Below, one piece after another: positions 4,242 through 29,796 of a stretch of 38,796 nt of DNA. The DNA lies in the NCBI GenBank assembly GCA_025356035.1, contig JANXYN010000031.1, forward strand, positions 1 to 38,796. Reading direction: 5' to 3'. The DNA is from Geobacteraceae bacterium (GTDB lineage Bacteria; Desulfobacterota; Desulfuromonadia; Geobacterales; Geobacteraceae). Position 1 is the first letter of the stretch; every line of letters begins with the position of its first letter. Below the pieces are notes generated by a model that saw nothing but the letters and a program-made list of their open reading frames with translations, was not told the origin of the DNA and did not search any database. The position numbers and the translations under genes were made by a program.

Positions 4242-4247
4242 TATTTA

Positions 4248-6153: not shown

Positions 6154-6252
6154 GTTAATCAAGGCCAGGTTAATCGTCTATAGACGGGGAGAGGGCTGGA
6201 AAATCTGATAAATTGCGCATCGCGGTGAGCCAACGCGGAAAGGATAGCGACA

Positions 6253-7389: not shown

Positions 7390-7390
7390 T

Positions 7391-12461: not shown

Positions 12462-12497
12462 AACCATTTCGCAGCCTAAATAAGCGAGGAGATAATC

Positions 12498-12893
12498 ATG
12501 ATCAAATATATCACCGTAATTCTTGCAGTAATGATTCTGGTCGGAACCAGCAGCTTCGGCATGGCGGCAGAAGATACCTTCACCTGTGCCCTTACCAAGG
12601 CTTTTGAGTGCTTACCCGATGACGGGTGCACGGCATGGTCGATAGATGAAATGGCTCTCCCCCGGTTTGTGCGCATCGATCTCAAAAGTAAGACCATCAC
12701 CTCTCTGGACAAGGTGATGCCGCGCAACTCAAAAATTGCGTCAATCGATCGTCTGGAGCGCGTGATCGTTTTGCACGGTACCGAGATGCGTGGCTGGAGC
12801 ATAGCGCTGGGAGAGGATTCGAACGAGGTTACCCTGAGTGCTTCCGGAGATGGGGAAGGGTTTATCGTGTTCGGATACTGTATGAAAAACTGA
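12498..12893 (+). CDS. Exported protein of unknown function
   Basis: This 131-residue protein has a clear Sec signal peptide (cleavage probably after MAA, about residue 24). The mature part is short and has four Cys: two in FTCALTKAFECLPDDGC, another ending that segment, and one near the C-terminus (FGYCMKN), so one or two disulfides are likely in the periplasm. I do not recognise a domain. Ribosome binding site CGAGGAG precedes ATG 12498. It follows the glycine-zipper gene by 36 bp and is probably cotranscribed with it. Confidence 0.65.
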   Translation: MIKYITVILAVMILVGTSSFGMAAEDTFTCALTKAFECLPDDGCTAWSIDEMALPRFVRIDLKSKTITSLDKVMPRNSKIASIDRLERVIVLHGTEMRGWSIALGEDSNEVTLSASGDGEGFIVFGYCMKN

Positions 12894-12984
12894 GGACTGG
12901 CAAAACAGAAGGTGAATTCGGCAGTACTGGTAAGTTTTATCGAATAACGATGTTACCGACAACCAATTGAAAAGGAGAATTATC

Positions 12985-13578
12985 ATGAAGAAATTGCTTG
13001 CCACTGTAGTTGCCGCATTCATTTCCCTATCCTTTGCAGGAGTGACCCTTGCCGATGAGCAAGTGACAGTAACGAAAGGCACGTCAAAAAAGCTTTCATT
13101 GACGAAGGAGCGGCTGATCAACGAAACAGCCACGGTAGAGGCGGTGAATTATGACACCCGAGTCGTGACGTTAAAAGGGCCGAAGGGAAATGTTTTCGAT
13201 ATCACGGCCGGTGACCAGGTGCGGAACCTGGCCCAGGTAAAGGCCGGCGATAAGGTGAAGGTAAAATATTATCAGTCGGTGGCAGTCAAAGTGATGGCGC
13301 CGGGCCAGGCGCCGGGCGGAACGCAGGCAACTGTGGTGCAGAAACGGGCGAAACTCGGTGAAAAGCCGGGCGGGATGATAGGTGGCGAGATAACCATAAC
13401 AGCCAAAGTGGAGGCCATCGGTAAGAAGAAACAGTCCGTAACCCTGAAAGGACCGGAAGGAAAGACTTTGAAAGTAAAGGTGGAGCATCCGGAGTATCTG
13501 GAACACGTCAAGGTGGGTGACGATGTGCTTATTACCATGACCGAAGCGCTGGCCATCTCGGTCGAAGGGGTCAAATAA
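12985..13578 (+). CDS. Exported protein with two copies of a beta-rich repeat
   Basis: This 197-residue protein has a Sec signal peptide (cleavage likely after TLA, about residue 23). The mature protein contains an internal duplication: 'ATVEAVNYDTRVVTLKGPKG...AQVKAGDKVKVKYYQSVAVKV' (about 48-107) and 'AKVEAIGKKKQSVTLKGPEG...EHVKVGDDVLITMTEALAISV' (about 138-194). The matching 'V-T-LKGP-x-G' and 'VK-x-GD-x-V' blocks suggest a small OB- or beta-barrel-like module repeated twice. Ribosome binding site AAGGAG (12972-12977) supports ATG 12985 over the in-frame codon at 12967. Function is unknown. It is the last of three small exported genes and lies 125 bp before the decarboxylase gene. Confidence 0.7.
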   Translation: MKKLLATVVAAFISLSFAGVTLADEQVTVTKGTSKKLSLTKERLINETATVEAVNYDTRVVTLKGPKGNVFDITAGDQVRNLAQVKAGDKVKVKYYQSVAVKVMAPGQAPGGTQATVVQKRAKLGEKPGGMIGGEITITAKVEAIGKKKQSVTLKGPEGKTLKVKVEHPEYLEHVKVGDDVLITMTEALAISVEGVK

Positions 13579-13703: not shown

Positions 13704-16445
13704 ATGGACCTTGTTAATTTCTTTTCAGCGTCCGAGGCAAGGATCGACCGCTGGCGTCAGCTGAACGCAACGAGCCGCGCCTGGGAAGCCTCGATCGCGA
13801 AGGGAAAGCCTGATGATAAATTGCATGTCGAGGCAGCGCAGATTTTCACGGAGATACAGCCGCTCGAGGATTACTGGGCCTTTCCCGGGCCCCGGCTGAT
13901 GGCCACGATCAGCGAGGCCCTTGAGCAACGTAACGCGGCGGTGTTCGCCCGCCTCGTGCAGAAGACATCCAATGCACTGCTCACCGGCTCCTACCGCTAC
14001 GAGAGTGCCACCTGGGACCCGCTGCAGGAAGGCGAGGGGAGCACTCCCGACATTCTGCCGCCGGACGTCAAACCGGGCGAATCCCACAAGCCGTATTTCG
14101 AGGTGCTCGTGGTCACGCCCAATGACCCGAAGGTATGGGAGCGTGCGCGGAACGAACTCAGACGCCTGCGCCGGACGGAAGATCTGTTCAACTATGAGAT
14201 CGTACAGGTCGGAAGCTTCGAGGACGGGGCCCTTGGCGCGATCTTCAACCACAACGTGCAGGCCGTGGTGATCTATGACGGCTTTTCGTTCCACTCCCGG
14301 CACGACTTGCCGGTGATGCGCGAGTTCCTGACGCGCAACCTGCGCGTCGATCCCACAAGCATTGCGCCCGGGGCGCTTGCGACCACGCTCGCGCGGGCGA
14401 TCAAGAACTTCCGGCCGGAGCTGGACATCTATCTGCTCACCGATCGGGCCGTCGAGACGCTCGCCGGCAGCGAGGAGGCCGCGCCCATCCGCAGGATCTT
14501 CCATAATATCGAAGAGGTGATGGAACTCCACCTCGCCATCCTGGACGGCGTGAACGATCGCTACGACACGCCTTTTTTCTCGAACCTCAAGAAATACGCC
14601 CAGCGGCCCGTTGGCACGTTTCACGCCCTGCCGATCGCCCGCGGCAAGTCGGTCTTCCGCTCGAACTGGATCCGGGACATGGGCCAGTTCTACGGAACGA
14701 ACCTGTTCCATGCCGAGTCGTCGGCGACCACGGGCGGGTTGGACAGCCTGCTTGAGCCCACGGGCAACATCAAGAAGATGCAGGACATGGCGGCGCGGGC
14801 GTTCGGAGCAAAGCGGGCCTATCTCGGAACGAACGGCACTTCAACATCGAATAAAATCGTGGTGCAGGCAGTCTGCAAGCCGGGCGACATCGTGATCGTG
14901 GACCGGAACTGCCATAAGTCGCACCACTACGGGTTCGTGCTGACCGGGGCGCAACCATATTACGTCGAAGCCTATCCCTTGACGCAGTACTCGATGTACG
15001 GCGCCGTGCCGCTCCGCACGATCAAGAAGGCGCTGCTCGATTGCAAGGCAGAGGGAAAGCTCGACCGCGTGAAGGTGGTGGACATGACCAACTGCACCTT
15101 CGACGGCCACATGTACAACCCGAAGCGCGTGATGGAAGAGTGCCTCGCGATCAAACCGAACCTGATCTTCCTCTGGGACGAGGCATGGTTCGGGTTTGCA
15201 CGCTTCAATCCGTTCCATCGACGGCGCACGGCCATGGGCGCAGCCGCCGCGTTGACCGCACGGTATCGTGATCCTGCGTACCGCAACGAGTATAAGGCTT
15301 TTGCTGCAAAGGCAGGCAAGCTCGACCCGAAGGACGCAAAACTGCTCGACCTGCATCTCATGCCGGACCCGGACAAGGTGCGCATCCGCGTCTACCAGAC
15401 AAACTCGACCCACAAGTCCATGTCCGCATTGCGCCAGGGGTCGATGATCCTGGTGTGGGATGAGGACTTCCATCAGGTGGAGGGGCCCTTCGAGGAGGCG
15501 TTCTTCACGCACACCTCTACCTCGCCTAATCAGCAGCTCATCGCGTCGCTCGACGTGGCGCGGCGGCAGATGGAGCTGGAGGGCTACGAGCTGACCATGA
15601 AGATGACCGAGCTCTCCCTCAGGCTGCGCCGCGAGATCAACAACCATCCGCTCATTTCGAAGTACTTCCGCGTCGCCACACCGGAGGAGATGATCCCCGC
15701 CGAGTTCCGCGCGTCAGGGCTGAAGGAGTATGGTCCGCCCCATGCCACCTGGAAGGAAGCGATCGACGCGCTGGACAACGACGAGTTCAGCCTCGATCCG
15801 ACCCGGATGACGCTCATCTGCGGCTCGTCCGGCTTCGACGGCACGCAGTTCAAGAATCTGCTGGCGGACCGCTACGACGTCCAGATCAACAAGACCTCGC
15901 GCAACAGCATACTCGTCCAGATCAACATCAACAACACGCGCAGCGACGCGGCGCTCCTGATCAAGGTGCTGGCCGATCTCTCCCGGGAGATCGAGGCGCG
16001 CCTTGCCCAGGGCGGCAAGGAGGAGCAGGCGATCTTCGCTGCCCGGGTGAAGTCGCTGATGACGGATGTCCCGGACCTGCCGAACTTCAGCCGGTTCCAC
16101 GACGTGTTCCGCGAGAACCCGAAGGCCGTGAGCAACGAAGGCCACATGCGGCCTGCCTTCTTTATGGCCTACGATGACGCCAACTGCGAATTCGTGAAGC
16201 TCGCGAGCAAGGAGATCGACGACCGGTTGAAGAACGGCCCCGAGCTCGTCTCGGCCAACTTCGTGATCCCGTACCCGCCGGGCTTCCCGATCATGGTGCC
16301 GGGCCAGGTGATCACCAATGAGACGATCGTTTTCATGCGCAAGCTCGACGTGAAGGAGATCCACGGCTATCACGCCGCGCACGGCCTGAAGTTGCTCAAG
16401 CCGGCTGTGCTCGCCGGGCGCAAGAAGCCGGGCGCAGATATCTAG
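13704..16445 (+). CDS. Oversized PLP-dependent Orn/Lys/Arg-type amino-acid decarboxylase
   Basis: This 913-residue cytoplasmic enzyme belongs to the fold-I family of AdiA, CadA and SpeF, which are usually 710-760 residues. An N-terminal receiver-like wing (about 130-240, starting FEVLVVTPNDP) is followed by the PLP domain. It shows GTNGTSTSNK, the DRNCHKSHHYG motif, DEAWFGFARFNP (Asp492 to the pyridine nitrogen) and STHKSMSALRQGS with Schiff-base Lys571. About 60 extra residues lie between Asp492 and Lys571. The C-terminal domain contains FVIPYPPGFPIMVPGQ, as in classical members. The substrate cannot be assigned; arginine, lysine, ornithine or an acidic amino acid are all possible. Decarboxylation consumes a cytoplasmic proton. 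AAAGGAG precedes ATG 13704. The stop TAG is formed by two target-site bases plus the first base of MITE copy 2; before insertion it would have been TAA at the same codon. Confidence 0.85.
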   Translation: MDLVNFFSASEARIDRWRQLNATSRAWEASIAKGKPDDKLHVEAAQIFTEIQPLEDYWAFPGPRLMATISEALEQRNAAVFARLVQKTSNALLTGSYRYESATWDPLQEGEGSTPDILPPDVKPGESHKPYFEVLVVTPNDPKVWERARNELRRLRRTEDLFNYEIVQVGSFEDGALGAIFNHNVQAVVIYDGFSFHSRHDLPVMREFLTRNLRVDPTSIAPGALATTLARAIKNFRPELDIYLLTDRAVETLAGSEEAAPIRRIFHNIEEVMELHLAILDGVNDRYDTPFFSNLKKYAQRPVGTFHALPIARGKSVFRSNWIRDMGQFYGTNLFHAESSATTGGLDSLLEPTGNIKKMQDMAARAFGAKRAYLGTNGTSTSNKIVVQAVCKPGDIVIVDRNCHKSHHYGFVLTGAQPYYVEAYPLTQYSMYGAVPLRTIKKALLDCKAEGKLDRVKVVDMTNCTFDGHMYNPKRVMEECLAIKPNLIFLWDEAWFGFARFNPFHRRRTAMGAAAALTARYRDPAYRNEYKAFAAKAGKLDPKDAKLLDLHLMPDPDKVRIRVYQTNSTHKSMSALRQGSMILVWDEDFHQVEGPFEEAFFTHTSTSPNQQLIASLDVARRQMELEGYELTMKMTELSLRLRREINNHPLISKYFRVATPEEMIPAEFRASGLKEYGPPHATWKEAIDALDNDEFSLDPTRMTLICGSSGFDGTQFKNLLADRYDVQINKTSRNSILVQININNTRSDAALLIKVLADLSREIEARLAQGGKEEQAIFAARVKSLMTDVPDLPNFSRFHDVFRENPKAVSNEGHMRPAFFMAYDDANCEFVKLASKEIDDRLKNGPELVSANFVIPYPPGFPIMVPGQVITNETIVFMRKLDVKEIHGYHAAHGLKLLKPAVLAGRKKPGADI

Positions 16446-16620
16446 TTTCCATCCGGAAACGGTCCTTTTTCGCCCTGGCGGCGTCAATCTTCGGGCTTGC
16501 TTGTGCGGCGTACTTCTGTACGCCTCCGCGCAACCCCTCGATTTCCTAGCCAGGACGAAAAATTCCTCGTTTCCGAATTGGAAACCAATAGTGTCACATC
16601 CAGAGTTTCCGGATGGACAC
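16445..16620 (+). mobile_element. MITE-like non-autonomous element, copy 2 (176 bp)
   Basis: It is nearly identical to 4066-4241 (three substitutions: G to C in the hairpin-tip loop, T to A, G to A; no indels). It has the same 16-bp terminal inverted repeats and is flanked by a 6-bp direct repeat TATCTA (16439-16444 and 16621-16626). It sits inside what would otherwise be a tight junction: removing the element and one repeat leaves about 30 bp from the decarboxylase stop to the exchanger ATG. It overlaps the TAG stop codon by one base. Its hairpin would be transcribed within the operon message. Confidence 0.87.
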
Positions 16621-16656
16621 TATCTAATCACCATAATACCTACTAAGGAGGTTTGC

Positions 16657-18351
16657 ATGGTAGCGCTATTCGAGTTTCTGAGAACGAATCCGTTTCTTCT
16701 TTTGTTCCTCACCGTAGGTCTGGCCGTCTTGATCGGGCGATTGACGGTCAAAGGGTACGGCCTTGGCATGGTGGCGGCGGCGGTCGTCGTGGGGGTCGTG
16801 CTGGCCACCTGGGCCTCGACCTACGGTGTCAAACTGCAGCTCGACAACTTCGCGAAGTCGCTGATGTACTACCTGTTCATGTACGGTGTGGGCTTACGGG
16901 TGGGTCCCTCCTTCTTCAACAGCCTGAAGAAGGACGGCCTGACCTTTACCATCCTCGCTGTCGTGTGCAGCGTCCTCGGCCTGGGCCTCGTCGTGGTGCT
17001 GAGCCGCCTGTTCGGTCTGCCGGCCGGAGCGGCGGGCGGGGTCCTCGCCGGCTCCCAGACCATGTCAGCGGCTATCGGCACGGCTGAGATGGCCATGACC
17101 CAGGGGGCATACCAGGTGCCGGCGGGTTCCACCCCCGAGGCCGTGACGGCGATGATCGCCCTCGGCTACGGCATTACCTACATCTGGGGGACGGTCGGCA
17201 TCATCCTGGTCTGCAAGTACCTTCCGAAGTGGTGGGGCGTAGATGCGCGCAAGGCAGCGAAGGAGTATGAAGAGCAGCATGGGGTGCCGAATCTCGACGA
17301 CGCCGGGATGACCGGGTACCGTCCTGCAGGGCTCCGCGCCTACCGTCTGGAGAATAAAGAGACCGCCGGTAAGACGATCGCCCAATTTCGCCAAAGCTTT
17401 CCGCAGTATCGCATCCTGAACGTTGTTCGTGGCAACGAAGTGCTCGGGGCGAGCGCTGATCTGGCGATGCAACTGGGTGACGTCGTGGCCCTCGGCGGCC
17501 GGATTGAAGACCTTACTGCCAACATGGGGCTCCTGGGCCCTGAGGTTTCCGATTCCAAGGCCCTGGCGATCCCGCTCGACCAGGCGGAGATACTGGTCAC
17601 CCAGAAGAGCGTGGAGGGGAAGGCGCTCAAGGAGTTCCGCCACGAGGAGTTTGCCGGCCAGCTCCAAGTGGTCCGCATGGAGCGCGGGGGGGTTCCATAC
17701 CCCGTCGGGGCCGATACTCAGCTGAAGCGGTTCGACGTGCTGTTCGTTGCAGGGCTCAAGAGCGCGGTGGAGAAGGTGGCTGCGGTTTTGGGGAAGGTTG
17801 CCCGGCCGAGCACGGCAACCGACCTGCTGACGCTGTCGATCGGCATGATCCTGGGCCTTCTGATCGGCGGGATCAACGTGCCAGTGGGCGGCTTCAAGGT
17901 CGGTCTGGGCAACGCCGGCGGGCTGCTTCTCTCTGGCATATTCGTCTCGTCTGCCGTCTCGCGCCTGCGGTTCTTTGGCAGCACGCCCAACGCCGCACGC
18001 AACGTCCTCGAAGACCTGGGCCTCGTTACCTTTGTCGGGATCGTGGGCATCAATGCAGGCGCATCCCTCTTGGCACAGCTCACCGGGGTGGTGGCGCTCA
18101 AGATCTTCCTCGTTGGCTTCATTGCGAGCACGGTCCCACCGTTCATCACCTGGGCGCTCGGTTATCACCTGTTCAAGATCAACGCCGCGGTCCTGATGGG
18201 CGGCGTGGCCGGCGCCCGTTCGCACTCGGGGCCGGCGCGCGAGGCCGCGAAGGAGATCAACAGTTCGGTGCCGTGGGTCGGGTTTCCGGTGGGCTACGCC
18301 GTCTCTGGCGTCCTGCTCACGGTCTTCGGCTATTTTGCGATGATTCTCTAA
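16657..18351 (+). CDS. AspT-family (AAEx) exchanger, first paralogue
   Basis: This 564-residue inner-membrane protein has the symmetric layout of the aspartate:alanine exchanger family (TC 2.A.81). About five helices (5-185) come first, including GGVLAGSQTMSAAIGTAEMA. A cytoplasmic central region with two RCK/TrkA-C modules (about 205-375) follows, then about five or six helices (390-564) with the counterpart loop GGVAGARSHSGPAREAA. Known members exchange Asp for Ala or export succinate. I choose ATG 16657 because AAGGAGG sits 6 bp upstream; an in-frame extension would begin inside the MITE and is spurious. It stands next to a decarboxylase, as classical substrate/product exchangers do, and is followed 82 bp on by a paralogue. 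Confidence 0.85.
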   Translation: MVALFEFLRTNPFLLLFLTVGLAVLIGRLTVKGYGLGMVAAAVVVGVVLATWASTYGVKLQLDNFAKSLMYYLFMYGVGLRVGPSFFNSLKKDGLTFTILAVVCSVLGLGLVVVLSRLFGLPAGAAGGVLAGSQTMSAAIGTAEMAMTQGAYQVPAGSTPEAVTAMIALGYGITYIWGTVGIILVCKYLPKWWGVDARKAAKEYEEQHGVPNLDDAGMTGYRPAGLRAYRLENKETAGKTIAQFRQSFPQYRILNVVRGNEVLGASADLAMQLGDVVALGGRIEDLTANMGLLGPEVSDSKALAIPLDQAEILVTQKSVEGKALKEFRHEEFAGQLQVVRMERGGVPYPVGADTQLKRFDVLFVAGLKSAVEKVAAVLGKVARPSTATDLLTLSIGMILGLLIGGINVPVGGFKVGLGNAGGLLLSGIFVSSAVSRLRFFGSTPNAARNVLEDLGLVTFVGIVGINAGASLLAQLTGVVALKIFLVGFIASTVPPFITWALGYHLFKINAAVLMGGVAGARSHSGPAREAAKEINSSVPWVGFPVGYAVSGVLLTVFGYFAMIL

Positions 18352-18433
18352 GAGAAGCAGGCGGGTTTCCGACGGTTTGTAACGGATCTGGAAAGGCAGA
18401 GGCTTACCTGTATCACATAGAGGAGACACCACT

Positions 18434-20116
18434 ATGGATTATTTCGTGAAGGCCTTTCAGGAGCATGCGGAGCTGGCCATCTTCCTTGCGCTGGCCCTTG
18501 GGTTCCTAATCGGTCGGATCAAGATAAGATCGTTCAGCCTTGGGACTGTGGTGGGGACCCTCCTGGCAGGCGTTATCATCGGTCAGCTCGATATCAAGGT
18601 CCCCGCGATAGTGGAGGCCGTATTCTTCGACCTGTTCCTGTTCACTACCGGATACAAGGTCGGGCCCCAGTTCTTCCGGGGGTTGAAGAAGGACGCCCTG
18701 CCACAACTGGCGGTTACGGTTGTCCTGTGCGTCACCTGCCTGCTGGCCGCGTACACGAGCGCGAAATTTCTCGGCTACGATATGGGTACAGCGGCAGGCC
18801 TACTGGCCGGTGCCTTCACGGAATCCACGGTCATCGGCACGGCAAGCGATGCCATCAATCGCCTCAGCCTTGCGGCAGAGGAGAAGACCCGCCTAATGAA
18901 TAACATTCCGGTTGCCTACGCGGTGACATATCTTATCGGCACCGCGTTCATCATATGGTTTCTGCCAACGATCGGGCCCAGGCTGATGGGAGTCAATTTG
19001 AAGGAGGAGGGGAAGAAGCTGCAGTCAGAGATCTCCGGCGCGGAAGAGCCGGAGGCCGGCGTGCAATCGGCCTTCCAGAATTTTGGGGTCCGGGCATACC
19101 GTGTGACCAATGAGAAGCTCGTGAACAAGACCGTCGCGGAGCTCGAGGTCCTGCCTAGGGAGTTTCGCATATTCATCACGCGGATCCGTCATAATGGCAC
19201 GATCATCGAGCCCGAACCGACCACGGCCATTCATCAGGGAGACGTGATCGCAGTAATAACCCGCACCGAGGCCCTCATGGCGCGGGGCGCCCAGATCGGA
19301 CCTGAAGTGGACGACAAGGTCCTCCTCGATTTTCCCCAGGAGTTCCTGGACGTGGTGATCACGAACAAGGCCCTGGCCGGGAAGTCTTTCCGGGAGCTGG
19401 CGGCCTTGGAGTTTGCCCGAGGGGTTTTCCTGCGTAAGCACCTGCGGGTCGGGGAGCCGATGCCGTTCACCTTCGAGACGCGCGTTGACCGGGGCGACGT
19501 GCTGAGCCTTGTCGGCGCCAAGCGCGATGTCGAACGGGCGGCGAAGGAGTTGGGATACGCTGACCGGCCTACGAATGCGACAGACATGATATTCGTGGGC
19601 ACGGGCATCGTTCTCGGTGGACTGGTCGGCCTGCTCTCTATCTCGATTGGTGGATTGCCGATCACCCTGACGGCGAGTGGCGGTGCGCTGATCATGGGGC
19701 TGGTTTTCGGCTGGCTCCGGTCCGTGCGTCCGACCTTCGGCCGGATACCCGAGGCGGCCATGTGGGTCTTCGACACTGTCGGGCTCACGACCTTCATGGC
19801 TGTTGTGGGTCTGGGGGCCGGCCCCAGTTTCATCGCGGGCCTCCAGAAAACAGGGGTGAGTCTGGTCTTTGTGGGCCTTCTGGTGGCGGTGCTGCCTCAC
19901 GTCACGGCAATCCTCTTCGGGCGGTATGTATTAAAGATGAACCCCCTGATCCTCCTGGGCGCTTGCTCCGGAGCAGGGACGATCACTGCGGCGCTTCGCG
20001 CAGTCCAGGAAGAGGCGCAGAGCAAGCTTCCGGCACTTGGCTATACCGTACCCTATGCCATCGGAAACATCCTGCTCACGGCATGGGGGCCGGTCATCGT
20101 GGCCATGATGGCGTGA
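18434..20116 (+). CDS. AspT-family (AAEx) exchanger, second paralogue
   Basis: This 560-residue paralogue of the preceding gene has the same plan: N-terminal helices with AGLLAGAFTESTVIGTASDAI, two central RCK/TrkA-C modules (about 210-385), and C-terminal helices with GACSGAGTITAALRAVQEEA. The two proteins align end to end but differ clearly in the repeated pore-like loops (for example SQTMSAAIGT against AFTESTVIGT), suggesting different substrates or a heteromeric carrier rather than a recent duplicate. AGAGGAG lies upstream of ATG 18434. A porin gene follows 55 bp downstream. Confidence 0.85.
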   Translation: MDYFVKAFQEHAELAIFLALALGFLIGRIKIRSFSLGTVVGTLLAGVIIGQLDIKVPAIVEAVFFDLFLFTTGYKVGPQFFRGLKKDALPQLAVTVVLCVTCLLAAYTSAKFLGYDMGTAAGLLAGAFTESTVIGTASDAINRLSLAAEEKTRLMNNIPVAYAVTYLIGTAFIIWFLPTIGPRLMGVNLKEEGKKLQSEISGAEEPEAGVQSAFQNFGVRAYRVTNEKLVNKTVAELEVLPREFRIFITRIRHNGTIIEPEPTTAIHQGDVIAVITRTEALMARGAQIGPEVDDKVLLDFPQEFLDVVITNKALAGKSFRELAALEFARGVFLRKHLRVGEPMPFTFETRVDRGDVLSLVGAKRDVERAAKELGYADRPTNATDMIFVGTGIVLGGLVGLLSISIGGLPITLTASGGALIMGLVFGWLRSVRPTFGRIPEAAMWVFDTVGLTTFMAVVGLGAGPSFIAGLQKTGVSLVFVGLLVAVLPHVTAILFGRYVLKMNPLILLGACSGAGTITAALRAVQEEAQSKLPALGYTVPYAIGNILLTAWGPVIVAMMA

Positions 20117-20171
20117 CGAAAATTAACCTCTTACCTCTCTGCAGGGAAGGCGAGCAGGAAAGGAGAAACCG

Positions 20172-21614
20172 ATGATGACCAATCTGATCCATACATGCTG
20201 CGGGAACTATCGACCAGGATTACTGAAAAACTCGGCGTTTTCGGGCAGGATACTTCTGTCGACGGGAATAAGCCTTATGATCCTGATGCTCTGGGCGAGC
20301 GCCCCTGCCCTGGCCGATGAGGCGATCTCCCAGGAGGAACCGACCCCCGGGTCGGTGAAGGAAGAGGTTGTGCCCATGGAACGGTCATTTATGGAGAAGC
20401 TTAGCCGTCCCGGTTTTTTCCCCTGGCTGAAAGAGCAGTTGAAAGATACCACTCCTTTTATCCGTGACACGAATCTCGATCTGAACCTCCGAACGTATTA
20501 CTTCGATCGCAACAAGTTCGATGACACGGAAACTTTGGCTTGGGCCATTGGCGGCGCTCTCGCGTACCGCTCCGGCTTTTTTCTCGACCACGTCGGTGTC
20601 GGCGCAACGCTCTACACCTCCCAGCCCATCTACGCGCCGGACCACAAAGACGGGACGCTCCTGCTGAAACCGGGCCAGGAAAGGTACACGGTGCTGGGCC
20701 AACTGTTCAGCAGGGTAAAAGTAGTCGACGAGAATTTTTTCAATATCTATCGATACGAATATAACACCCCCTATCTGAACAAGAACGACAACCGCATGAC
20801 CCCGAACACCTTTGAGGGGTACACCTTCACGGGAGCCGCGGGAGGCAAGGACGGCGCGCCGAAGTTCAACTACGGGGGCGGGTACATCGAAAAAATCAAA
20901 CCCCGGAACACGGACCATTTCACCTCGATGTCCCAAGCTGCCGGCGCAAATGTGAAACGGGGAGTTGTGCTCGGCGGCGCCAACACCTCTTTCAACAATT
21001 TCACGATAGGCGCCATCGACTACTATTCGGATGACATCATCAACATCGGTTATGCCGAGGCGAAATACACCTTAGCGTTGACAGAGCGTGTAGGCCTCCT
21101 CTTCGCGGCCCAGTTTACGGATCAACGGAGTACGGGCGACGATATCTTGAAGGGCTCTTCCTTCAATACGAATCAGACCGGCTTGAAGGCCGAGGCAAGC
21201 TCCGGGGGAGGCATCATCTCCCTTGCCTATACGATAGACTCCGACGGGGCTGATCTGCAAAATCCCTGGAGCAGTTTTCCGGGTTACACCAGCGTGCAGG
21301 TGCAGGATTTCAACCGCGCCGGTGAACAGGCGTTCATGGTCAAGGGGTCCTATGATTTCTCCCACCTCGACCTAGATGGCGTTACGGCGTATGTTCTGTG
21401 GGTGCACGGATGGGATGCGGTTAATCCCTTGACCAAAGCGGAAGTGTATAACCAGGATGAAGTCGACTACGATATCCAGTGGAAGCCGAAGAGCGGCAGT
21501 CTGAAGGGGCTGTGGTTCCGGGTCCGGTATGCCGACGTTAATCAGCGAGGGATGGGCAATGCATCCCTGACTGATTTACGCGTCATCGTAAACTACGATC
21601 TGCCGTTGCTGTAA
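20172..21614 (+). CDS. OprD-type outer-membrane porin
   Basis: This 480-residue protein has a long N-terminal export signal (hydrophobic core about 27-45, cleavage probably after ALA, about residue 48). The mature part has OprD-family features: DTNLDLNLRTYYFDRN, AWAIGGALAYRSGFF, GVGATLYTSQPIYAPD, the NTPYLNKNDNRMTPNTFEGY segment, and a series of amphipathic strands. It ends in VNYDLPLL rather than the usual terminal Phe. OprD porins admit basic amino acids or small carboxylates; pairing with a decarboxylase and exchangers suggests it brings in the substrate (inference). AAAGGAG precedes ATG 20172. Confidence 0.75.
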   Translation: MMTNLIHTCCGNYRPGLLKNSAFSGRILLSTGISLMILMLWASAPALADEAISQEEPTPGSVKEEVVPMERSFMEKLSRPGFFPWLKEQLKDTTPFIRDTNLDLNLRTYYFDRNKFDDTETLAWAIGGALAYRSGFFLDHVGVGATLYTSQPIYAPDHKDGTLLLKPGQERYTVLGQLFSRVKVVDENFFNIYRYEYNTPYLNKNDNRMTPNTFEGYTFTGAAGGKDGAPKFNYGGGYIEKIKPRNTDHFTSMSQAAGANVKRGVVLGGANTSFNNFTIGAIDYYSDDIINIGYAEAKYTLALTERVGLLFAAQFTDQRSTGDDILKGSSFNTNQTGLKAEASSGGGIISLAYTIDSDGADLQNPWSSFPGYTSVQVQDFNRAGEQAFMVKGSYDFSHLDLDGVTAYVLWVHGWDAVNPLTKAEVYNQDEVDYDIQWKPKSGSLKGLWFRVRYADVNQRGMGNASLTDLRVIVNYDLPLL

Positions 21615-21668
21615 GATGCGGGACTCTTTGTTCGGCGGCGCTGTGCAGTGGGCAGAAGACGACGCGCT

Positions 21669-22328
21669 ATGATGCAAGAGCAATTTCAAATACCGATCAT
21701 CTTCGATCTCGGCGCAACCTTTGTCTTCGGCATAACCGGGGCCCTGGCAGCGCTGCGGCGCGGTTACGACATCATCGGGCTGTTTGCGCTGGCCTTTGCC
21801 AGCGGGGTCGGCGGCGGTCTGCTGCGCGATGGCCTGTTTCTCCAGCAGGGGCCTCCGGCGCTTACGACGGATGGGCGCTACCTCGTTGCCATCTTGGCGG
21901 CCGGACTCGTCGGGTTGCTCTTTCTCCGCTGGGTGGATCGGTTCACTAAGATGATCGCCCTTGTCGATGCCCTCGGCCTCGGCGCCTATGCGGTCGTGGG
22001 CGTACAGAAGTCAATAATTGCCGGCTTGAGCGTTCCGGCGGCTGTTCTGGTCGGCGTCATCAATGCCGTGGGGGGCGGTCTGCTCCGCGATCTGTTGGTA
22101 AGGGATGAGCCCTTGCTGCTCAAGCCCGGCCAATTCTATGCGCTGGCTGCCCTGGGAGGATGTCTGCTCTTTGTCTTCCTCACCGTGAACATTGGCATGC
22201 CGGCCCCGCGGGCGGGCCTCATCACCATCGCCTGCACCTTTATCGTGCGCGTTCTGTCGATTACGTTCAACTGGAGGACGAAGTCGTTGTATCGTCCGGA
22301 AACGCCGGAAGAGGAGCAGAAGCGTTAA
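21669..22328 (+). CDS. TRIC/UPF0126-family membrane protein (putative cation channel)
   Basis: This 219-residue inner-membrane protein has about seven helices. It is built from two repeated halves, each with the conserved Gly-rich kink and acidic end: GVGGGLLRDGLFLQQGPPAL, then VGGGLLRDLLVRDEPLLLKP. This is the signature of UPF0126 (YadS/YicG) proteins, whose bacterial members form trimeric K+-permeable channels related to TRIC. I prefer ATG 21669; the frame extends to GTG 21648, but that adds an Arg-rich head without a better ribosome binding site. In this cluster it may balance charge when the exchangers work, which is inference. Confidence 0.8.
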   Translation: MMQEQFQIPIIFDLGATFVFGITGALAALRRGYDIIGLFALAFASGVGGGLLRDGLFLQQGPPALTTDGRYLVAILAAGLVGLLFLRWVDRFTKMIALVDALGLGAYAVVGVQKSIIAGLSVPAAVLVGVINAVGGGLLRDLLVRDEPLLLKPGQFYALAALGGCLLFVFLTVNIGMPAPRAGLITIACTFIVRVLSITFNWRTKSLYRPETPEEEQKR

Positions 22329-22454: not shown

Positions 22455-23525
22455 ATGATAAGGAATTCTGTGCGGTTTTTCGGAGTGCCGATCCTGCTCG
22501 CACTTCTCATCGGCTGCACGGCGATCGGGCCGGCTACCGTCGCCCGCGACCGCTTCGACTATACCACCTCGGTTTCCGACTCGTGGAAGCGGCAGATGCT
22601 CCTCAACATCGTAAAGATACGCTACGGTGACGCCCCGATCTTCCTCGACGTGGCCTCCATCATAAACCAATATCAGTTGACCACCGACGTGAACGCCTCG
22701 TTCGGCTGGTCGTTTCCGCCGACCGGCAACAACCAGAGAATAGGTGTCGACGGCAGTTTCGTCGACCGCCCCACGATCACCTATACCCCCATGACCGGCG
22801 AGAAGTTCGCCCGCAACCTCATGACCCCCATTGCACCTGCCACGATCATGAGTATGGTTGAGGGGGGATACCCCATCGACATGGTCTTCCGGATTCTCGT
22901 CCACTCCGTGAACGGCATCCAGAACCAGTTCGGGGGCACCGCCCGGGCGCGGCGGGCCGACCCGGAGTTTTATCTCATCCTGGAGAAGCTCCGTCACATC
23001 CAGGCCTCGGGGGCGGTTGCCCTGCGGGTGCGAAAGACGGAGAACCGCGATGCATTGATGATGGTCTTTCGCAAACGGGTGGACCCGGAGATTGAAGCGG
23101 AGGGGAAAGCGGTGCGGCGGCTGCTTGGCCTCAAGGAGGAAGGGGGCGAATTCAGGGTCGTCTACGGGTCGGCGCCGAGCAATGATGAAGAGGTTGCCCT
23201 CCTGACCCGCTCCATCATCGAAATTCTCAGCGACATCTCCTCGACCGTCGTAGTGCCTGCGGAACATGTGGCCGAGCTGCGGACCCCGCCGACCATGGAG
23301 CCGGAGGGTGAGGGTATCAAGGGGACGATGATACGCATCCTCTGTTCGGAAAAAAGGCCCGGGGACGACTTCGCCGCCGTGCCGTACCGGGACCGATGGT
23401 TCTGGATCGACGACCGGGACTACCGGTCGAAAAAACTCTTCTCGTTCCTTATGTTTGTGATGACCCTCACTGAGACCGTCGGCAAGGAGGGGGCGCCGAT
23501 CGTGACAATCTCGGCGGGGGGATAA
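22455..23525 (+). CDS. Lipoprotein of unknown function
   Basis: This 356-residue protein has a lipoprotein signal peptide (LLIGC, Cys21). The mature part contains DRFDYTTSVSDSWKRQMLLNIVKIRYGDAP near its start and a mixed alpha/beta body with no family I can name. Similar proteins are, as I recall, found across Deltaproteobacteria as uncharacterised lipoproteins. It is about 127 bp downstream of the TRIC gene, behind a hairpin, and AGGAG precedes ATG 22455. It may be the last gene of the decarboxylase cluster or a separate unit; the RND operon begins 99 bp later. Confidence 0.65.
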   Translation: MIRNSVRFFGVPILLALLIGCTAIGPATVARDRFDYTTSVSDSWKRQMLLNIVKIRYGDAPIFLDVASIINQYQLTTDVNASFGWSFPPTGNNQRIGVDGSFVDRPTITYTPMTGEKFARNLMTPIAPATIMSMVEGGYPIDMVFRILVHSVNGIQNQFGGTARARRADPEFYLILEKLRHIQASGAVALRVRKTENRDALMMVFRKRVDPEIEAEGKAVRRLLGLKEEGGEFRVVYGSAPSNDEEVALLTRSIIEILSDISSTVVVPAEHVAELRTPPTMEPEGEGIKGTMIRILCSEKRPGDDFAAVPYRDRWFWIDDRDYRSKKLFSFLMFVMTLTETVGKEGAPIVTISAGG

Positions 23526-23624: not shown

Positions 23625-24869
23625 ATGAATCCCACGAATGAAGGACGGCTTGTCATCTCCCGTATCATGCTCCTGTCCAGCCTCGGCTGTGCCTCACTGG
23701 CGCTTCTTCTCACCGCCGGTTGCGGCAAGGAGAAGGCACAGGCACCTCCACCGCCGACGGTCGAGGTGGTTAACGTAGTCCAGAAGGATGTCCCGATCTA
23801 CAAGGAATGGGTCGGTGCGCTGGATGGCAATGTCAATGCCGTTATCCGTCCCCATGTGAGCGGTTACCTGATCAAGCAGAACTACCGTGAAGGAGAGCTG
23901 GTCAAGACCGGCCAGGTGCTGTTCGAGATCGACCCGCGCACCTTCCAGGCCTCTCTTGATCAGGCCAAGGGGCAACTTGCGCAACAGAAGGCGCGTCATG
24001 ACACCGCCGCGGCCAATCTGGCCCGGATTCGCCCCCTGGCCGCAAAAAATGCGGTCAGCAAGAAGGACCTGGATGATGCCATCGGCGCCGAGCTGTCTAC
24101 GAGGGCTTCGGTCGAGGCTGCCCAGGCGGCAGTGGAGGAAGCCCAGCTGAACCTCGGGTTTACCAGAATTACTTCCCCCGTTGACGGCATTGCCGGAATC
24201 GCCAAGGCTCAACTGGGCGACCTGGTCGGCCCGAACATGCCGACCGAACTGACGGCCGTCTCCTCGGTTGACCCGATCAAGGCCTATATCAATGTCAGCG
24301 AGCAGGAATACCTCAATGTCAACAAGTCAAGCCCGATTCCCGAGAAGATTCCCCTGGAACTGATCCTTGCAGACGGCAGCGTCTATCCTCACAAAGGTCA
24401 TCTGGCCCTGGCCGACCGGCAGATCGACCCGACCACCGGCACCCTCAAGGTGGGATCGCTCTTTGCCAATCCCGGCAACAGGCTTCGTCCCGGCGGGTAC
24501 GGCCTGGTGCGGGCGGTCATGTTGGTCAAAAAGGGTGCCCTGCTGATCCCCCAGCGGTCCGTCACCGATATGCAGGGTAAATTCCTGGTTGCGGTAGTCG
24601 GGGCCGATAACAAGGTCAGCATCCGCCCGGTGAAAGTGGCGGAGAGGATCGGCTCGGATTGGATCATCGAGGAAGGGCTGAAGCCGGGCGACAAGGTGGT
24701 GGCCGAGGGGACGCAGAAAGTTAAGCCGGACATGGTGGTTAACCCGCAGCCGTTCGATCCGGAAGCGGCTGCCAAGGCAGCGGCCGCAAAAGCTGCGGCG
24801 CCGACCCAGGGAGCAGCCGCCAAACCTGAGGCGAAACCGGCAGCTCCGGCGCCGGCAGAGAAGAGGTAG
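23625..24869 (+). CDS. RND efflux periplasmic adaptor lipoprotein (AcrA/MexA family)
   Basis: This 414-residue protein has a lipoprotein signal (LLLTAGC, Cys33). The order of parts is typical: a beta strand leading into the lipoyl half VIRPHVSGYLIKQNYREGEL, an alpha hairpin (about 105-170, including LAAKNAVSKKDLDDA), the second lipoyl half FTRITSPVDGIAGIAKAQLG, then a beta barrel and membrane-proximal domain. The C-terminal tail (about 380-414) is Ala/Pro/Lys low-complexity. GAGGAGG precedes ATG 23625. The pump gene follows 6 bp later. It links the pump to the outer-membrane factor encoded at 28048. Confidence 0.9.
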   Translation: MNPTNEGRLVISRIMLLSSLGCASLALLLTAGCGKEKAQAPPPPTVEVVNVVQKDVPIYKEWVGALDGNVNAVIRPHVSGYLIKQNYREGELVKTGQVLFEIDPRTFQASLDQAKGQLAQQKARHDTAAANLARIRPLAAKNAVSKKDLDDAIGAELSTRASVEAAQAAVEEAQLNLGFTRITSPVDGIAGIAKAQLGDLVGPNMPTELTAVSSVDPIKAYINVSEQEYLNVNKSSPIPEKIPLELILADGSVYPHKGHLALADRQIDPTTGTLKVGSLFANPGNRLRPGGYGLVRAVMLVKKGALLIPQRSVTDMQGKFLVAVVGADNKVSIRPVKVAERIGSDWIIEEGLKPGDKVVAEGTQKVKPDMVVNPQPFDPEAAAKAAAAKAAAPTQGAAAKPEAKPAAPAPAEKR

Positions 24870-24875
24870 CCAGCC

Positions 24876-27800
24876 ATGTCAAAATTCTTTATTAATCGCC
24901 CTATTGTGGCCATGGTGATCTCGATCTTCATGGTCATCCTTGGCGCTGTGGCCATGTCGGGACTTCCCATCGCCCAGTTTCCCAACATTGTCCCGCCGGC
25001 GATTCAGGTGAACGCTGTTTACACCGGCGCCGACGCCATTACCGTGGAGCAGTCGGTGGCTACCCCGATCGAGCAGCAGATGTCCGGCGTCGATAATCTG
25101 GATTACATGTACTCCGTCAACGCCAACGACGGTTCGATGACCCTCTACAACTACTTCGAACTGGGGACCGACGCCAATACCGACCAGATACTTTCCCAGA
25201 TGCGCCAGAATCAGGCGTCATCGCAACTGCCGGCCGATGTCAACAGCTACGGGGTTACCGTGGCGAAATCGACCTCGGCGCCGATGATCATGTTCGCCCT
25301 CTACTCTCCCAACAACACCTACGACAACGTCTTCCTGGCTAACTACTCCTACATCAACATCAACGACCAGATGACCCGCATCAAGGGGATTGCCAGCGTC
25401 TCGGTCTTCGGCGCCGGCCAGTACGCCATGCGGATCTGGGTCCGACCGGACCAGCTCGCCAAGCTCAACATCACCATCCCGGAGATCATGAACGCGGTCA
25501 AAGCCCAGAATACCGTCAACCCGGCGGGACAGGTCGGGAGCCAGCCGGTGCCGAAAGGGCAGGAGTTCACCTACACGGTTCGCGCCCAGGGGCGTCTCCA
25601 GACCGAGGCAGAGTTCGGCAAAATCGTGCTTCGCGCCAATCCGGATGGTTCCATCGTCCGGGTGAAGGACGTGGCCCGCATCGAGCTGGGCGCCCAGAAC
25701 TACAAACTGGAAGGACGCCTGAACGGCAAGCCGTGCGCGCTCGTGGCCCTCTACCAGATGCCGGGATCAAACGCCCTGGAAGCGGCCAACGGCACCAAGA
25801 AGCTGATGGAGGAGTTAAAGAAGAGCTTCCCGCCGGATCTGGACTACACGGTGGCGCTGGACACCACCCTGGCGGTCACCGAAGGGATCAACGAAATTAA
25901 GCACACCTTCTTCGAAGCCCTGATACTGGTAATCCTGGTGGTCTTCATCTTCCTCCAGGGGTGGCGGGCAACCCTGATCCCGCTCCTGGCGGTGCCGGTG
26001 TCGCTGGTGGGAACCTTCGCTCTCTTCCCGCTGCTCGGCTTTTCCATCAACACCCTCTCCCTTTTCGGGATGGTCCTTGCCATCGGCCTGGTCGTGGATG
26101 ACGCCATTGTCGTGGTGGAGGCAGTAGAGCACCATATCGAACATGGCATGTCGCCCAAGGATGCGGCCTTCAAGGCGATGGAGGAGGTCTCCGGCCCGGT
26201 CATCGCCATCGCCATCATCCTGACGGCAGTCTTCGTCCCGACCGCTTTCATCCCCGGCATTACCGGCCAGCTCTACCAGCAGTTCGCCGTGACCATCGCC
26301 GTCTCGGTCATCATTTCGGCCTTCAACGCCCTCACCCTTTCTCCGGCGCTCTGCGCACTGATGCTGAAGCCGAAGAAGAAGGGGACCGGCCCGCTCCAGA
26401 AGTTCTACGACTGGTTTAACCGGGTCTTCGGCCGGGCCACCGACGGCTACGTGTCAATCTGCGGCACCGCCATCAGGAAAAGCAAGACCAGTCTGCTCCT
26501 GCTGCTTGGGGTGGCAGTCCTTGCAGGGGTAGCGGGCAAGAGCATTCCAACCGGCTTCCTCCCCGACGAGGACCAGGGGTTCATCTTCGCCAATATCCAG
26601 CTCCCCAACGCAGCTTCGCTGCAGCGGACCGGCGAAGTGGCCCGTCAGGCCGAAGAGATCATCCTGAAAACCCCTGGCGTCAAATACTGCTCGACGCTGG
26701 TCGGTTTCAGCATGCTGAGCCAGGTCTATAACACCTACAGCGCCTTCTTCTTCATCTCACTGAAAGATTGGAAAGAGCGGAAGAATCCGGAAGAGCAGTA
26801 TGAGGCGATCAAGGCGTCCCTTACGAAAAAGATGGGCGGCATCCCCGGAGGAGTCGGCTTTCCGTTCCCGCCGCCGGCCATCATGGGGATCGGCACCTCG
26901 GGCGGGGCCACGTTCATGCTGCAGGACAAGGCCGGCAAGGACGTCGCTTTCCTCGCCGAAAACACGCAGAAATTCATCGAAGCGGCCAGGAAAAGGCCTG
27001 AGTTGGCCCGGGTCACCACTACATTCCTCCCCAACGTGCCGCAGCTGTTCGTGAATGTGGACCGGGATAAGGTGCTGAAGCAGGGGGTCAACATTGACGA
27101 CGTCTATAAGGTCCTGCAGAGCTTCATGGGGAGCGGTTTCATCAACTACTTCAACCGCTTCGGACGCCAGTGGCAGACGTACATCCAGGCTGAAGGTGAC
27201 TACCGGACCAACATCGACAACATCGGCCAGTTCTACGTGCGCAACAGGGAAGGGAAATCAGTCCCCCTCTCGGCGCTGACCTCGATTCGCAACATCTCCG
27301 GACCGGAATTCACCATGCGCTTCAACCTCTTCCGCTCCGCCCAGATCAACGCCACCGCGGCCCCCGGCTTCAGTTCGGCCCAGGCCATGAAGGCGCTGGA
27401 AGAGACCTTTGCCCAGACCATGCCGCGGGAGATGGGGTACGACTACAGCGGCATGTCGTTCCAGGAGAAGAAGGCCCAGAAGGGGGTTTCGCCGGCGGTG
27501 ATCTTCGCCTTCTCGTTCCTTTGCGTCTTCCTGATCCTGGCGGCCCAGTACGAGAGCTGGTCGCTGCCGTTCTCGGTCCTTCTGGGAACGCCGGTGGCCG
27601 TGGCCGGAGCCTTCGCCGGCCTGCTCTTCGGATCATTCGAGAACAACATCTACGCCCAGATCGGTCTGGTCATGCTTATCGGTCTGGCGGCCAAGAACGC
27701 CATCCTGATCGTCGAATTCGCCAAGATGGAGTATGAGAAGGGGAAACCCCTCGTGGAAGCTACCCTGGAGGGTGCCAAGCTGCGGTTGCGGCCGATCCTG

Positions 27801-28055
27801 ATGACCTCCTTCGCCTTCATTCTCGGCTGCGTGCCGCTGGCCATCGCCAGCGGGGCCGGTGCCATCTCCCGCCAGGTCATGGGGTACACCGTTATCTTCG
27901 GGATGCTGGCCGCCTCTTTCATTGCCATCTTCCTGATTCCGGTGACCTATTTTGTGGTGGAGAAGATCACCCACAAGGGCGACACCGGGGCCCAGCCTCA
28001 CGGAGGGGAGACTCCCGGTGGAGGCGGCGGAACAGGAGGTGATCACCATGCGTAG
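24876..28055 (+). CDS. RND efflux pump, HAE1 family (AcrB/MexB-like)
   Basis: This 1059-residue, 12-helix proton-driven exporter has the family N-terminus MSKFFINRPIVAMVISIFM. The proton-relay Asp pair sits in GLVVDDAIVVVEAVEHH of helix 4, and the conserved Lys is in GLAAKNAILIVEFAKMEYE of helix 10. Both periplasmic loops are full size, in the range of HAE1 drug pumps rather than CusA-type metal pumps: the Met triad of metal pumps is not evident. The C-terminus carries a Gly/His-rich tail. The last 8 bp overlap the outer-membrane factor start. Substrates are probably hydrophobic or amphiphilic compounds. Confidence 0.92.
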   Translation: MSKFFINRPIVAMVISIFMVILGAVAMSGLPIAQFPNIVPPAIQVNAVYTGADAITVEQSVATPIEQQMSGVDNLDYMYSVNANDGSMTLYNYFELGTDANTDQILSQMRQNQASSQLPADVNSYGVTVAKSTSAPMIMFALYSPNNTYDNVFLANYSYININDQMTRIKGIASVSVFGAGQYAMRIWVRPDQLAKLNITIPEIMNAVKAQNTVNPAGQVGSQPVPKGQEFTYTVRAQGRLQTEAEFGKIVLRANPDGSIVRVKDVARIELGAQNYKLEGRLNGKPCALVALYQMPGSNALEAANGTKKLMEELKKSFPPDLDYTVALDTTLAVTEGINEIKHTFFEALILVILVVFIFLQGWRATLIPLLAVPVSLVGTFALFPLLGFSINTLSLFGMVLAIGLVVDDAIVVVEAVEHHIEHGMSPKDAAFKAMEEVSGPVIAIAIILTAVFVPTAFIPGITGQLYQQFAVTIAVSVIISAFNALTLSPALCALMLKPKKKGTGPLQKFYDWFNRVFGRATDGYVSICGTAIRKSKTSLLLLLGVAVLAGVAGKSIPTGFLPDEDQGFIFANIQLPNAASLQRTGEVARQAEEIILKTPGVKYCSTLVGFSMLSQVYNTYSAFFFISLKDWKERKNPEEQYEAIKASLTKKMGGIPGGVGFPFPPPAIMGIGTSGGATFMLQDKAGKDVAFLAENTQKFIEAARKRPELARVTTTFLPNVPQLFVNVDRDKVLKQGVNIDDVYKVLQSFMGSGFINYFNRFGRQWQTYIQAEGDYRTNIDNIGQFYVRNREGKSVPLSALTSIRNISGPEFTMRFNLFRSAQINATAAPGFSSAQAMKALEETFAQTMPREMGYDYSGMSFQEKKAQKGVSPAVIFAFSFLCVFLILAAQYESWSLPFSVLLGTPVAVAGAFAGLLFGSFENNIYAQIGLVMLIGLAAKNAILIVEFAKMEYEKGKPLVEATLEGAKLRLRPILMTSFAFILGCVPLAIASGAGAISRQVMGYTVIFGMLAASFIAIFLIPVTYFVVEKITHKGDTGAQPHGGETPGGGGGTGGDHHA

Positions 28056-29796
28056 ACGATTCATTCTTTTCATTTCTCCCATCCTTGCTCTCTGCCTTGG
28101 GGGGTGCATGGTCGGTCCCGATTATGTTCGTCCCACGGTAGAGACACCACAAAACTGGCGCATTGAGGAGAAAGAGGCCAAGGATCTGAGCAACAGTTCC
28201 TGGTGGGAGCAGCTGAACGATCCGGTGCTGAACGATCTGGTCGCCACGGCGCTCAAGGAAAACAAGGATCTGCTCATTGCCGCGGCGCGAATTGAGGAGT
28301 TCGCCGGACGCTACGGCTTTGTGCGTTCCGGTCTCTTCCCCCAGGTCGGGGCAGGAGCCAGCTATGACCGCCAGCGGGTCAGCGAATCAGGGGAAAACGT
28401 GCTTCCGAGCGGTTTTAACCCCACCTATGACACGTTCCAGACGACCCTCAACGCCAGCTGGGAGCTGGATATCTGGGGGAGAGTCCGCCGTAGTACCGAA
28501 GCTGCCCGTGCCGAACTGCTGGCTAGCGAAGAGGGGCGGCGGGCCGTCATCCTCTCCCTGGTCAGCTCCGTGGCTGCTTCCTATGTCAATCTGCTCGATC
28601 TGGACCGTCAGTTGGAAATAACCAGAAACACGGCAAAGGTTCGCGAGAATTCCTACATAATCTTCAAAGACCGTTTCGAAGGCGGCATCATCTCCGAGAT
28701 GGAGCTGATGCAGGTGAAATCGCAGTATGAAGAAGCATTGGCGGCCATCCCGCAGCTTGAAAAAGCCGTGAGCCAGCAAGAGAACGGTATCTGCGTGCTC
28801 CTCGGGCGCAATCCGGGACCGATTACCCGGGGGAAAACCATCGACCAGCTGATGCTGCCGAACGTACCTGCCGGACTCCCCTCCGACCTTCTTACGCGTC
28901 GACCGGATATCCGCCAGGCCGAACAGAATCTGATTGCCGCCAATGCCGTGATCGGGGTTGCTAAAGCCGCCTACTTCCCGGCAATTTCCCTCACTGGTTT
29001 CTTCGGTTACGCCAGCAGCGACCTCTCGGATCTCTTTAAAGGACCTTCTGAGGTGTGGCAGTTCAGTGCGCCGGTGACAATGCCAATCTTCACCGCCGGC
29101 GCGATCGCCGGACAGGTCAAGGCCGCCGAAGCAATCCAGCAGCAGGCGCTGCTCGGTTACCAGGCGATCATTCAGACAGCCTTCCGCGAGGTTGACGATT
29201 CACTCGTTGACCAGAAGCGCACCCGAGAGCAGCTGGCCATCCAGCAGATACAGGTTGAGACGCTGCAGAGATACTATTCACTGGCCCAGTTGCGCTATGA
29301 CGAAGGCTACACCAGCTACATCGAGGTGCTTGACGCGGAACGGTCGCTGTTCAATGTGGAGCTGGCCTACACCCAGAACAAGGGAGTGCTGTTTCTTTCC
29401 CTGTTCAGCCTGTATAAGGCCATGGGCGGCGGATGGGTGACTGAGGCGGGGAAGCTGGCCGACATGTCAGCGGCGCCCATGGAGGAGTTTCCCTGCATGA
29501 TGGAGATCGAGCAGTTCTGCAAGGATGTCCTTCCCGGCGAAGGCCGGCTACTTCAATGTCTCGCCGGACATGAAAAGAACCTTTCGCCCGTCTGCCGGAG
29601 CAAGCTTGACAAGGTAAAGGCCCGCCTGGAAGAGGCCAAACGGACCTGCGCCCCGGAGCTGGAGAAATTCTGTGCCGGGGTTGCGCCTGGCCAGGGTCAT
29701 TTGCTGAACTGCCTGAAGGGCAAACTGGACGAGCTCTCACCGGCATGCCGGGAACAGGTTGTCATGATCGGGGCGAAAATCGCCCCAAAACAATAA
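28048..29796 (+). CDS. RND outer-membrane factor with a C-terminal pair of Cys-rich (GLG1-like) repeats
   Basis: The start ATG 28048 lies behind AGGAGGT inside the pump 3' end; the product has 582 residues. Residues 1-465 are a standard NodT/OprM lipoprotein duct: lipobox LGGC, GPDYVRP, LLTRRPDIRQAEQNL, and LYKAMGGGW at the usual end. About 115 residues follow that the family normally lacks. They hold two copies of a four-Cys module with identical spacing, C483-x7-C491-x12-C504-x11-C516 and C534-x7-C542-x12-C555-x11-C567, 51 residues apart. The pattern resembles the Cys-rich repeat of GLG1 (Cys_rich_FGFR). In an outer-membrane factor this end faces the periplasm, where disulfides could form. 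It could be a natural fusion with a separate periplasmic Cys-rich protein. Confidence 0.85.
   Translation: MRRRFILFISPILALCLGGCMVGPDYVRPTVETPQNWRIEEKEAKDLSNSSWWEQLNDPVLNDLVATALKENKDLLIAAARIEEFAGRYGFVRSGLFPQVGAGASYDRQRVSESGENVLPSGFNPTYDTFQTTLNASWELDIWGRVRRSTEAARAELLASEEGRRAVILSLVSSVAASYVNLLDLDRQLEITRNTAKVRENSYIIFKDRFEGGIISEMELMQVKSQYEEALAAIPQLEKAVSQQENGICVLLGRNPGPITRGKTIDQLMLPNVPAGLPSDLLTRRPDIRQAEQNLIAANAVIGVAKAAYFPAISLTGFFGYASSDLSDLFKGPSEVWQFSAPVTMPIFTAGAIAGQVKAAEAIQQQALLGYQAIIQTAFREVDDSLVDQKRTREQLAIQQIQVETLQRYYSLAQLRYDEGYTSYIEVLDAERSLFNVELAYTQNKGVLFLSLFSLYKAMGGGWVTEAGKLADMSAAPMEEFPCMMEIEQFCKDVLPGEGRLLQCLAGHEKNLSPVCRSKLDKVKARLEEAKRTCAPELEKFCAGVAPGQGHLLNCLKGKLDELSPACREQVVMIGAKIAPKQ

Follow-up and report, generated by a model that had tools for sequence, protein, structure and literature searches.

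The closest described systems to the locus reported here pair a decarboxylase with an exchanger. In the AspD/AspT cycle of Tetragenococcus halophilus, AspT performs an electrogenic exchange of Asp(1-) for Ala(0) that is coupled to decarboxylation (PMC9508256). Acid resistance in Escherichia coli involves the pairs AdiA/AdiC, CadA/CadB and SpeF/PotE. The chlamydial AaxABC system, which exchanges arginine for agmatine, combines a porin, a decarboxylase and an inner-membrane antiporter in one operon (PMC2720952). The locus under study lies in a stretch of 38,796 nt (henceforth, the window) of contig JANXYN010000031.1, assembly GCA_025356035.1, from a Geobacteraceae bacterium; coordinates refer to the forward strand. 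It encodes a pyridoxal phosphate (PLP) decarboxylase, two AspT-type exchangers, a porin and a TRIC-family membrane protein. With somewhat better than even confidence, we regard it as a decarboxylation/exchange system that consumes protons and acts on an acidic amino acid, with glutamate favored.

Like the AspD/AspT cycle, the window has an AspT-family exchanger beside a PLP decarboxylase, with a predicted electrogenic exchange of anion for neutral product. However, its enzyme is an OKR decarboxylase similar to Rv2531c of Mycobacterium tuberculosis and not AspD, the exchangers are two and divergent, a porin is present, and the genome lacks a recognized AspD. With the Adi, Cad and Spe systems the window shares the decarboxylase fold, the PLP residues and the pairing with an exchanger, but its carriers are AspT-type (PF06826) instead of APC-type, and the basic-side-chain residues of the enzyme are replaced. 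AaxABC has a similar composition, and the window set is co-directional; AaxABC, however, has a pyruvoyl enzyme, arginine as substrate and another carrier family, so the relationship is one of likeness and not of membership. The glutamate-dependent acid-resistance pair GadB/GadC coincides in the predicted chemistry (Glu in, gamma-aminobutyric acid [GABA] out, a proton used), while its enzyme and carrier families differ.

The five genes had been predicted at 13704-22328 from the sequence alone; all are present on the + strand, and their limits were confirmed. The decarboxylase (13704..16445, 913 aa, fold type I) matches Pfam OKR_DC_1 (E 4e-70), and its ATG is preceded by AAGGAG. Two exchanger genes follow, AspT-1 (16657..18351) and AspT-2 (18434..20116). 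The open reading frame listed for AspT-1 begins with TTG at 16501, and its start was moved to the ATG at 16657, which is preceded by AAGGAGG. An OprD-family outer-membrane porin (20172..21614; PF03573, E 1.3e-31) and a TRIC/UPF0126 membrane protein, named glycine transporter in Pfam (21648..22328; PF03458, E 2e-34), complete the set. The successive intergenic gaps measure 211, 82, 55 and 33 bp, and the genes are presumably transcribed together. Promoter and terminator scans gave no signal above shuffled sequence, so the limits of the operon rest on spacing and strand. A short stem with a T-rich tail (16445-16460) stands directly after the decarboxylase stop, in the 211-bp gap; it could be an attenuator, and such sites are no commoner than shuffled sequence would lead one to expect.

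Linkage of the decarboxylase with AspT carriers

To examine the gene neighborhood, 88 loci (labelled L) were chosen by the decarboxylase alone: 80 from a single scan in which an enzyme alignment was run against a genome collection, and 8 obtained earlier. Neighbor families were called by an all-frame search because taking the longest frames missed genes where GC content was high. The 88 loci come from several phyla. In 72 of them the decarboxylase has an AspT-family neighbor directly beside it; these 72 span the main clade of the decarboxylase tree, but they share descent and are hence not independent. Such linkage far exceeds what chance would give and, since the loci were picked by the enzyme only, it is not a selection effect. 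Decarboxylase and AspT carrier form a conserved unit, in support of the original prediction.

A lack of co-occurrence in other genomes, which would have spoken against the original prediction, was not observed. All five gene families are found together in one other locus, L023, a contig of a Chthoniobacterales metagenome-assembled genome (MAG) whose binning is not confirmed and which also has AspD. A Thermodesulfobacteriota MAG (L011) keeps the order decarboxylase, AspT, AspT, adaptor, RND pump, outer-membrane protein. At the other extreme, loci with the decarboxylase and a single AspT gene occur in Acetobacter, Gluconobacter, Acinetobacter, Alcaligenes and Pseudochrobactrum.

Sixteen loci have no AspT gene: four are at contig ends, five make up a sister group (L007-L010, L088), five belong to one Bradyrhizobium branch, and the others are L038 and L085. 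The sister group brings in a different explanation, namely that the enzyme is biosynthetic, contributing to the synthesis of a modified amine or peptide, and that AspT neighbors move an intermediate, with pH and energy playing no part. A gene located 3' of the enzyme is common to four of the five sister loci (L007, at 11696-13225, L008, L009 and L088); it is annotated as 'biotin carboxylase' in L007 and has no Pfam match. That the function of Rv2531c is not known (PMC12910592) also leaves room for a biosynthetic role. However, no AspT-linked locus was found to have the 3' partner gene, and the simplest loci have only enzyme and carrier in common. We consider a biosynthetic enzyme very improbable. 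The enzyme and its AspT carriers very probably constitute one exchange unit. The pair appears to be undescribed: each protein belongs to a known family, and no paper on an OKR decarboxylase paired with an AspT carrier was found in a literature search that left most subscription journals outside.

The enzyme and its substrate class

Full-length relatives of the decarboxylase among solved structures are restricted to the M. tuberculosis Rv2531c entries (PDB 9n0n, 9n0o and 9n0p). Homology with 9n0o spans residues 9-905 (E 8e-222), with an identity of around 36%. An AlphaFold model of the enzyme (pLDDT 81.9, pTM 0.86) has 9n0o as its best Foldseek match (TM-score by target, 0.94), and structures of Arg, Lys and Orn decarboxylases match far less well over the whole length. 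The N-terminal receiver-like wing (PF03709) had no match in the Pfam scan of the decarboxylase; an alpha/beta region at 131-267 of the model could be a divergent wing.

Within the window's own family, 22 other genomes all lack a relative of the decarboxylase. Among 395 genomes sampled from the phylum, one further genome carries a relative, again beside an AspT gene. The nearest neighbors in the decarboxylase tree are the Thermodesulfobacteriota MAG (75% identity) and Lysobacter (71-72%, as for Pseudoxanthomonas). Sparse relatives nearby, together with such tree neighbors, suggest horizontal gain in the window's genome. Burkholderiales, Rhizobiales, Rhodobacterales, acetic acid bacteria, Verrucomicrobia, Acidobacteria and Rokubacteria also have the enzyme.

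Residues bearing on the substrate were compared between 89 members of the window's enzyme family and E. coli CadA, LdcC, AdiA, SpeC and SpeF. The PLP site (Thr-Ser, His, Asp-x-Ala-Trp and Ser-x-His-Lys) is the same as in CadA, AdiA, SpeC and SpeF, and the catalytic residues, including the PLP lysine Lys571, His404 and Asp492, are invariant in all 89. Three other positions have changed. Asn729 occupies in 89/89 the position of CadA Glu526, a proposed substrate-binding residue of lysine decarboxylase (PMC5607190). Arg733, present in 88 of 89, lies at the position of an AdiA Asp (CadA Pro530 in the alignment). Gln868 is found in all 87 aligned members at CadA Glu663, which is also a Glu in AdiA, SpeC and SpeF. 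Rv2531c shares the Asn and Gln replacements but has Ile in place of Arg733.

One might still think of a basic amino acid decarboxylase akin to AdiA or CadA, whose AspT partners came to carry cations instead, as the OKR fold and the PLP site are conserved. The replacement of Glu526 by Asn, of the AdiA Asp by Arg and of Glu663 by Gln, almost throughout the family, makes action on Arg, Lys or Orn unlikely as far as alignment can tell. In addition, known basic systems use APC-type carriers, whereas those found here are AspT-type, and we know of no AspT member that carries cations. A basic system is thus very improbable, and Arg, Lys and Orn, which headed the substrates originally put forward for assay, give way to Glu and Asp as the likelier class. 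Loss of negative charge, gain of an Arg and neighboring carriers of an aspartate-linked family tip the balance towards a substrate with an anionic side chain, that is, an acidic amino acid. Glutamate in particular is plausible rather than probable, a guess over aspartate made because AspD already handles aspartate in 27 loci.

Two exchanger slots and a proposed cycle

The presence of two divergent AspT copies, another feature of the original prediction, recurs: at least two AspT genes are found in 44 of the 88 loci. In a tree of 116 AspT proteins we distinguish five types, A to E; AspT-1 of the window falls in type A and AspT-2 in type B. The enzyme has a type A neighbor in 24/24 related loci and a type C neighbor in 41/43; Arg733 is present in all 69 enzymes linked to either type. 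In every one of the 41 loci with exactly two assignable AspT proteins, window included, one carrier belongs to {A,C} and the other to {B,D,E}. The pairs are C+D (17 loci), A+E (10), A+D (6), B+C (6), A+B (1, the window) and C+E (1). Each of the six possible cross-set combinations is represented, and no pair lies within a set. Random pairing of the 41 loci yielded a mean of 20.8 cross-set pairs and a maximum of 33 in 20,000 shuffles, a test that overstates the evidence because the sets were drawn after the pairs were seen and related genomes repeat. More telling are the recurrence of the pattern in several lineages and the fact that A and C replace each other next to the same enzyme. Locus L011 (A+B, the A gene being split) and locus L047 (C+D+E) fit the pattern; L019 and L064 have one carrier each that could not be assigned to a type. 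Altogether, two distinct exchanger roles look real.

The two carriers of the window also differ in their scores against TIGR03802, the Asp:Ala equivalog with a cut-off of 547 bits: AspT-1 scores 392 bits and AspT-2 scores 659. The best explanation for AspT-1, which is below the cut-off, is that it is the enzyme's own, dedicated carrier. Orthologues of AspT-2 are found beside AspD in five loci. No aspartate 4-decarboxylase (TIGR03801) above cut-off is present in the window's genome assembly. Of 25 whole genomes with type A exchangers, 1 has AspD, versus 19 of 25 for type C (Fisher p 6e-8, a value that counts the window as type A and ignores relatedness of genomes). No enzyme columns separating the partners of type A from those of type C were found, so both types probably serve the same enzyme reaction; type C may also serve AspD. 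A substrate other than aspartate would then be a little more likely.

These data admit a further interpretation: the enzyme might be an aspartate decarboxylase that replaces AspD, yielding beta-alanine by alpha-decarboxylation or alanine by 4-decarboxylation, and both AspT proteins would exchange aspartate for one of these products. The score of AspT-2 and the absence of AspD from the window's genome and from 24 of 25 type A genomes, against its presence in 19 of 25 type C genomes, speak for this possibility. On the other hand, 27 loci hold both AspD and the enzyme; the two thus often operate in parallel and are unlikely to catalyze one and the same reaction. In addition, an enzyme of the alpha-decarboxylase group is less likely to perform 4-decarboxylation. 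We consider the replacement of AspD unlikely.

The cycle that we propose for an acidic amino acid would be as follows. An AspT-type carrier would import the anionic substrate, most likely glutamate, aspartate or a close analogue being possible. The Rv2531c-like PLP enzyme would decarboxylate it in the cytoplasm, consuming a proton, and the carrier would release the neutral product in exchange for substrate. The net effect would be a more alkaline cytoplasm, and charge separation could add to the proton-motive force. AspT-2 would have a separate function, carrying a related acidic amino acid or its product, and the OprD porin would serve the outer membrane. We infer the substrate class, the exchange, the proton consumption and the porin role; that the cycle serves acid resistance rather than energy gain is a guess, and so is any role assigned to the TRIC protein. 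A tentative and rather doubtful extension is that the system is widespread, with an OKR-fold enzyme turned from basic to acidic substrates by the Asn/Arg/Gln changes and with {A,C} and {B,D,E} carriers acting as a functional pair, possibly a heteromer.

Several points weigh against the proposed cycle. The Rv2531c-like family has no member of known activity, and model pLDDT is low in parts (301-352). The placement of Arg733 in the pocket rests on alignment, and the residue is also found in the AspT-less sister group (L007, L008, L010), so it is no marker of an exchange role. A second exchanger in a genome devoid of AspD is not fully explained. The decarboxylase neighborhoods contain no genes that name the substrate, the simplest loci gave mixed neighbors, and GABA-type genes are confined to a few loci, where their context is ambiguous. 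Lastly, no regulator tied to acid was found. The GABA-like genes of Phyllobacterium L005 adjoin genes for ectoine catabolism and are left out of the evidence.

Porin, other neighbors and wider meaning

Inclusion of a porin among the cluster members is borne out by its recurrence: porins of three families are found in the decarboxylase neighborhood in 28 of the 88 loci. OprD occurs in 10, and in L023, L024 and seven loci of Lysobacter/Pseudoxanthomonas its orthologues are members of the cluster. Chances are even that the porin is a working part in charge of the outer-membrane step. A set spanning both membranes, as envisaged originally, has its precedent in the porin, decarboxylase and antiporter of AaxABC (PMC2720952), but the cation channel included in that proposal does not hold up equally well. 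A TRIC homologue adjoins an AspT gene in L019 and L023 only (2/88), and the TRIC/UPF0126 family is important for glycine utilization in 11 bacteria (PMC12173739). Charge balancing by the TRIC protein, the weakest part of the original proposal, is therefore very unlikely. Given the link of the family to glycine use, the odds that the protein carries small amino acids are no lower than those of a cation channel. If an ion channel is linked to the cluster, a potassium-channel-like Ion_trans_2 protein encoded at 30243-30989 is a stronger candidate than the TRIC protein; a homologue (L011:4631-5323) is located 229 bp upstream of the decarboxylase, and others lie within 10 kb in six Lysobacter loci.

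The same-strand run extends past 22328, and its genes are possible further parts of the system. A lipoprotein of an unnamed family (22455..23525, +; no Pfam or NCBIfam match) has homologues 75-87 bp upstream of the decarboxylase in Acetobacter L075 (8724-9842) and L077 (8754-9854), and within 8 kb in L019, L081 and L083. RND pump genes follow from 23625 to around 29796, all on the + strand: an efflux adaptor (23625..24869; TIGR01730, E 4e-76), directly after AspT-2 in L011; the pump (24876..28055), with an L011 orthologue (1646 bits) in the same order; and an outer-membrane efflux protein (27952..29796; PF02321, E 2e-53; L011 orthologue, 645 bits), whose coordinates are those of the open frame and whose true start is probably after 28055. 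Directly 5' of the decarboxylase, a small protein with a signal-like N-terminus (12967..13578, +) is another possible part; its homologue in Pseudoroseomonas L068 is 99 bp upstream of the decarboxylase.

Other genes were observed in the vicinity. A SulP transporter is encoded at 33505-35211; 24 of the 88 loci have SulP genes near the decarboxylase, and in Bradyrhizobium, also where AspT is lacking, they stand immediately upstream of it. A polyphosphate-like gene group (31066-38224) comprises polyphosphate kinase (31066-33474), a histidine phosphatase (36217-36720) and a CHAD-domain protein (37286-38224). The region 787-9170 contains genes for a HipA-like protein (787-2049), FapA (4541-6031) and a MacB-type ABC exporter with an HlyD-like adaptor (6253-9170). 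Recurrent neighbors of the decarboxylase in many loci (L006, L014, L028, L051, L058, L070 and others) are DUF3300, DUF2950, Na/Ca-type exchangers, histidine kinases and response regulators.

The locus joins two protein families that are not reported together in the papers searched. It provides a testable substrate class for uncharacterized Rv2531c-like enzymes, the one of M. tuberculosis included, and suggests the existence of a decarboxylase/exchanger system over several phyla, acetic acid bacteria and rhizobia among them. The two-slot exchanger pattern offers, in turn, a route to learn how AspT carriers divide substrates.

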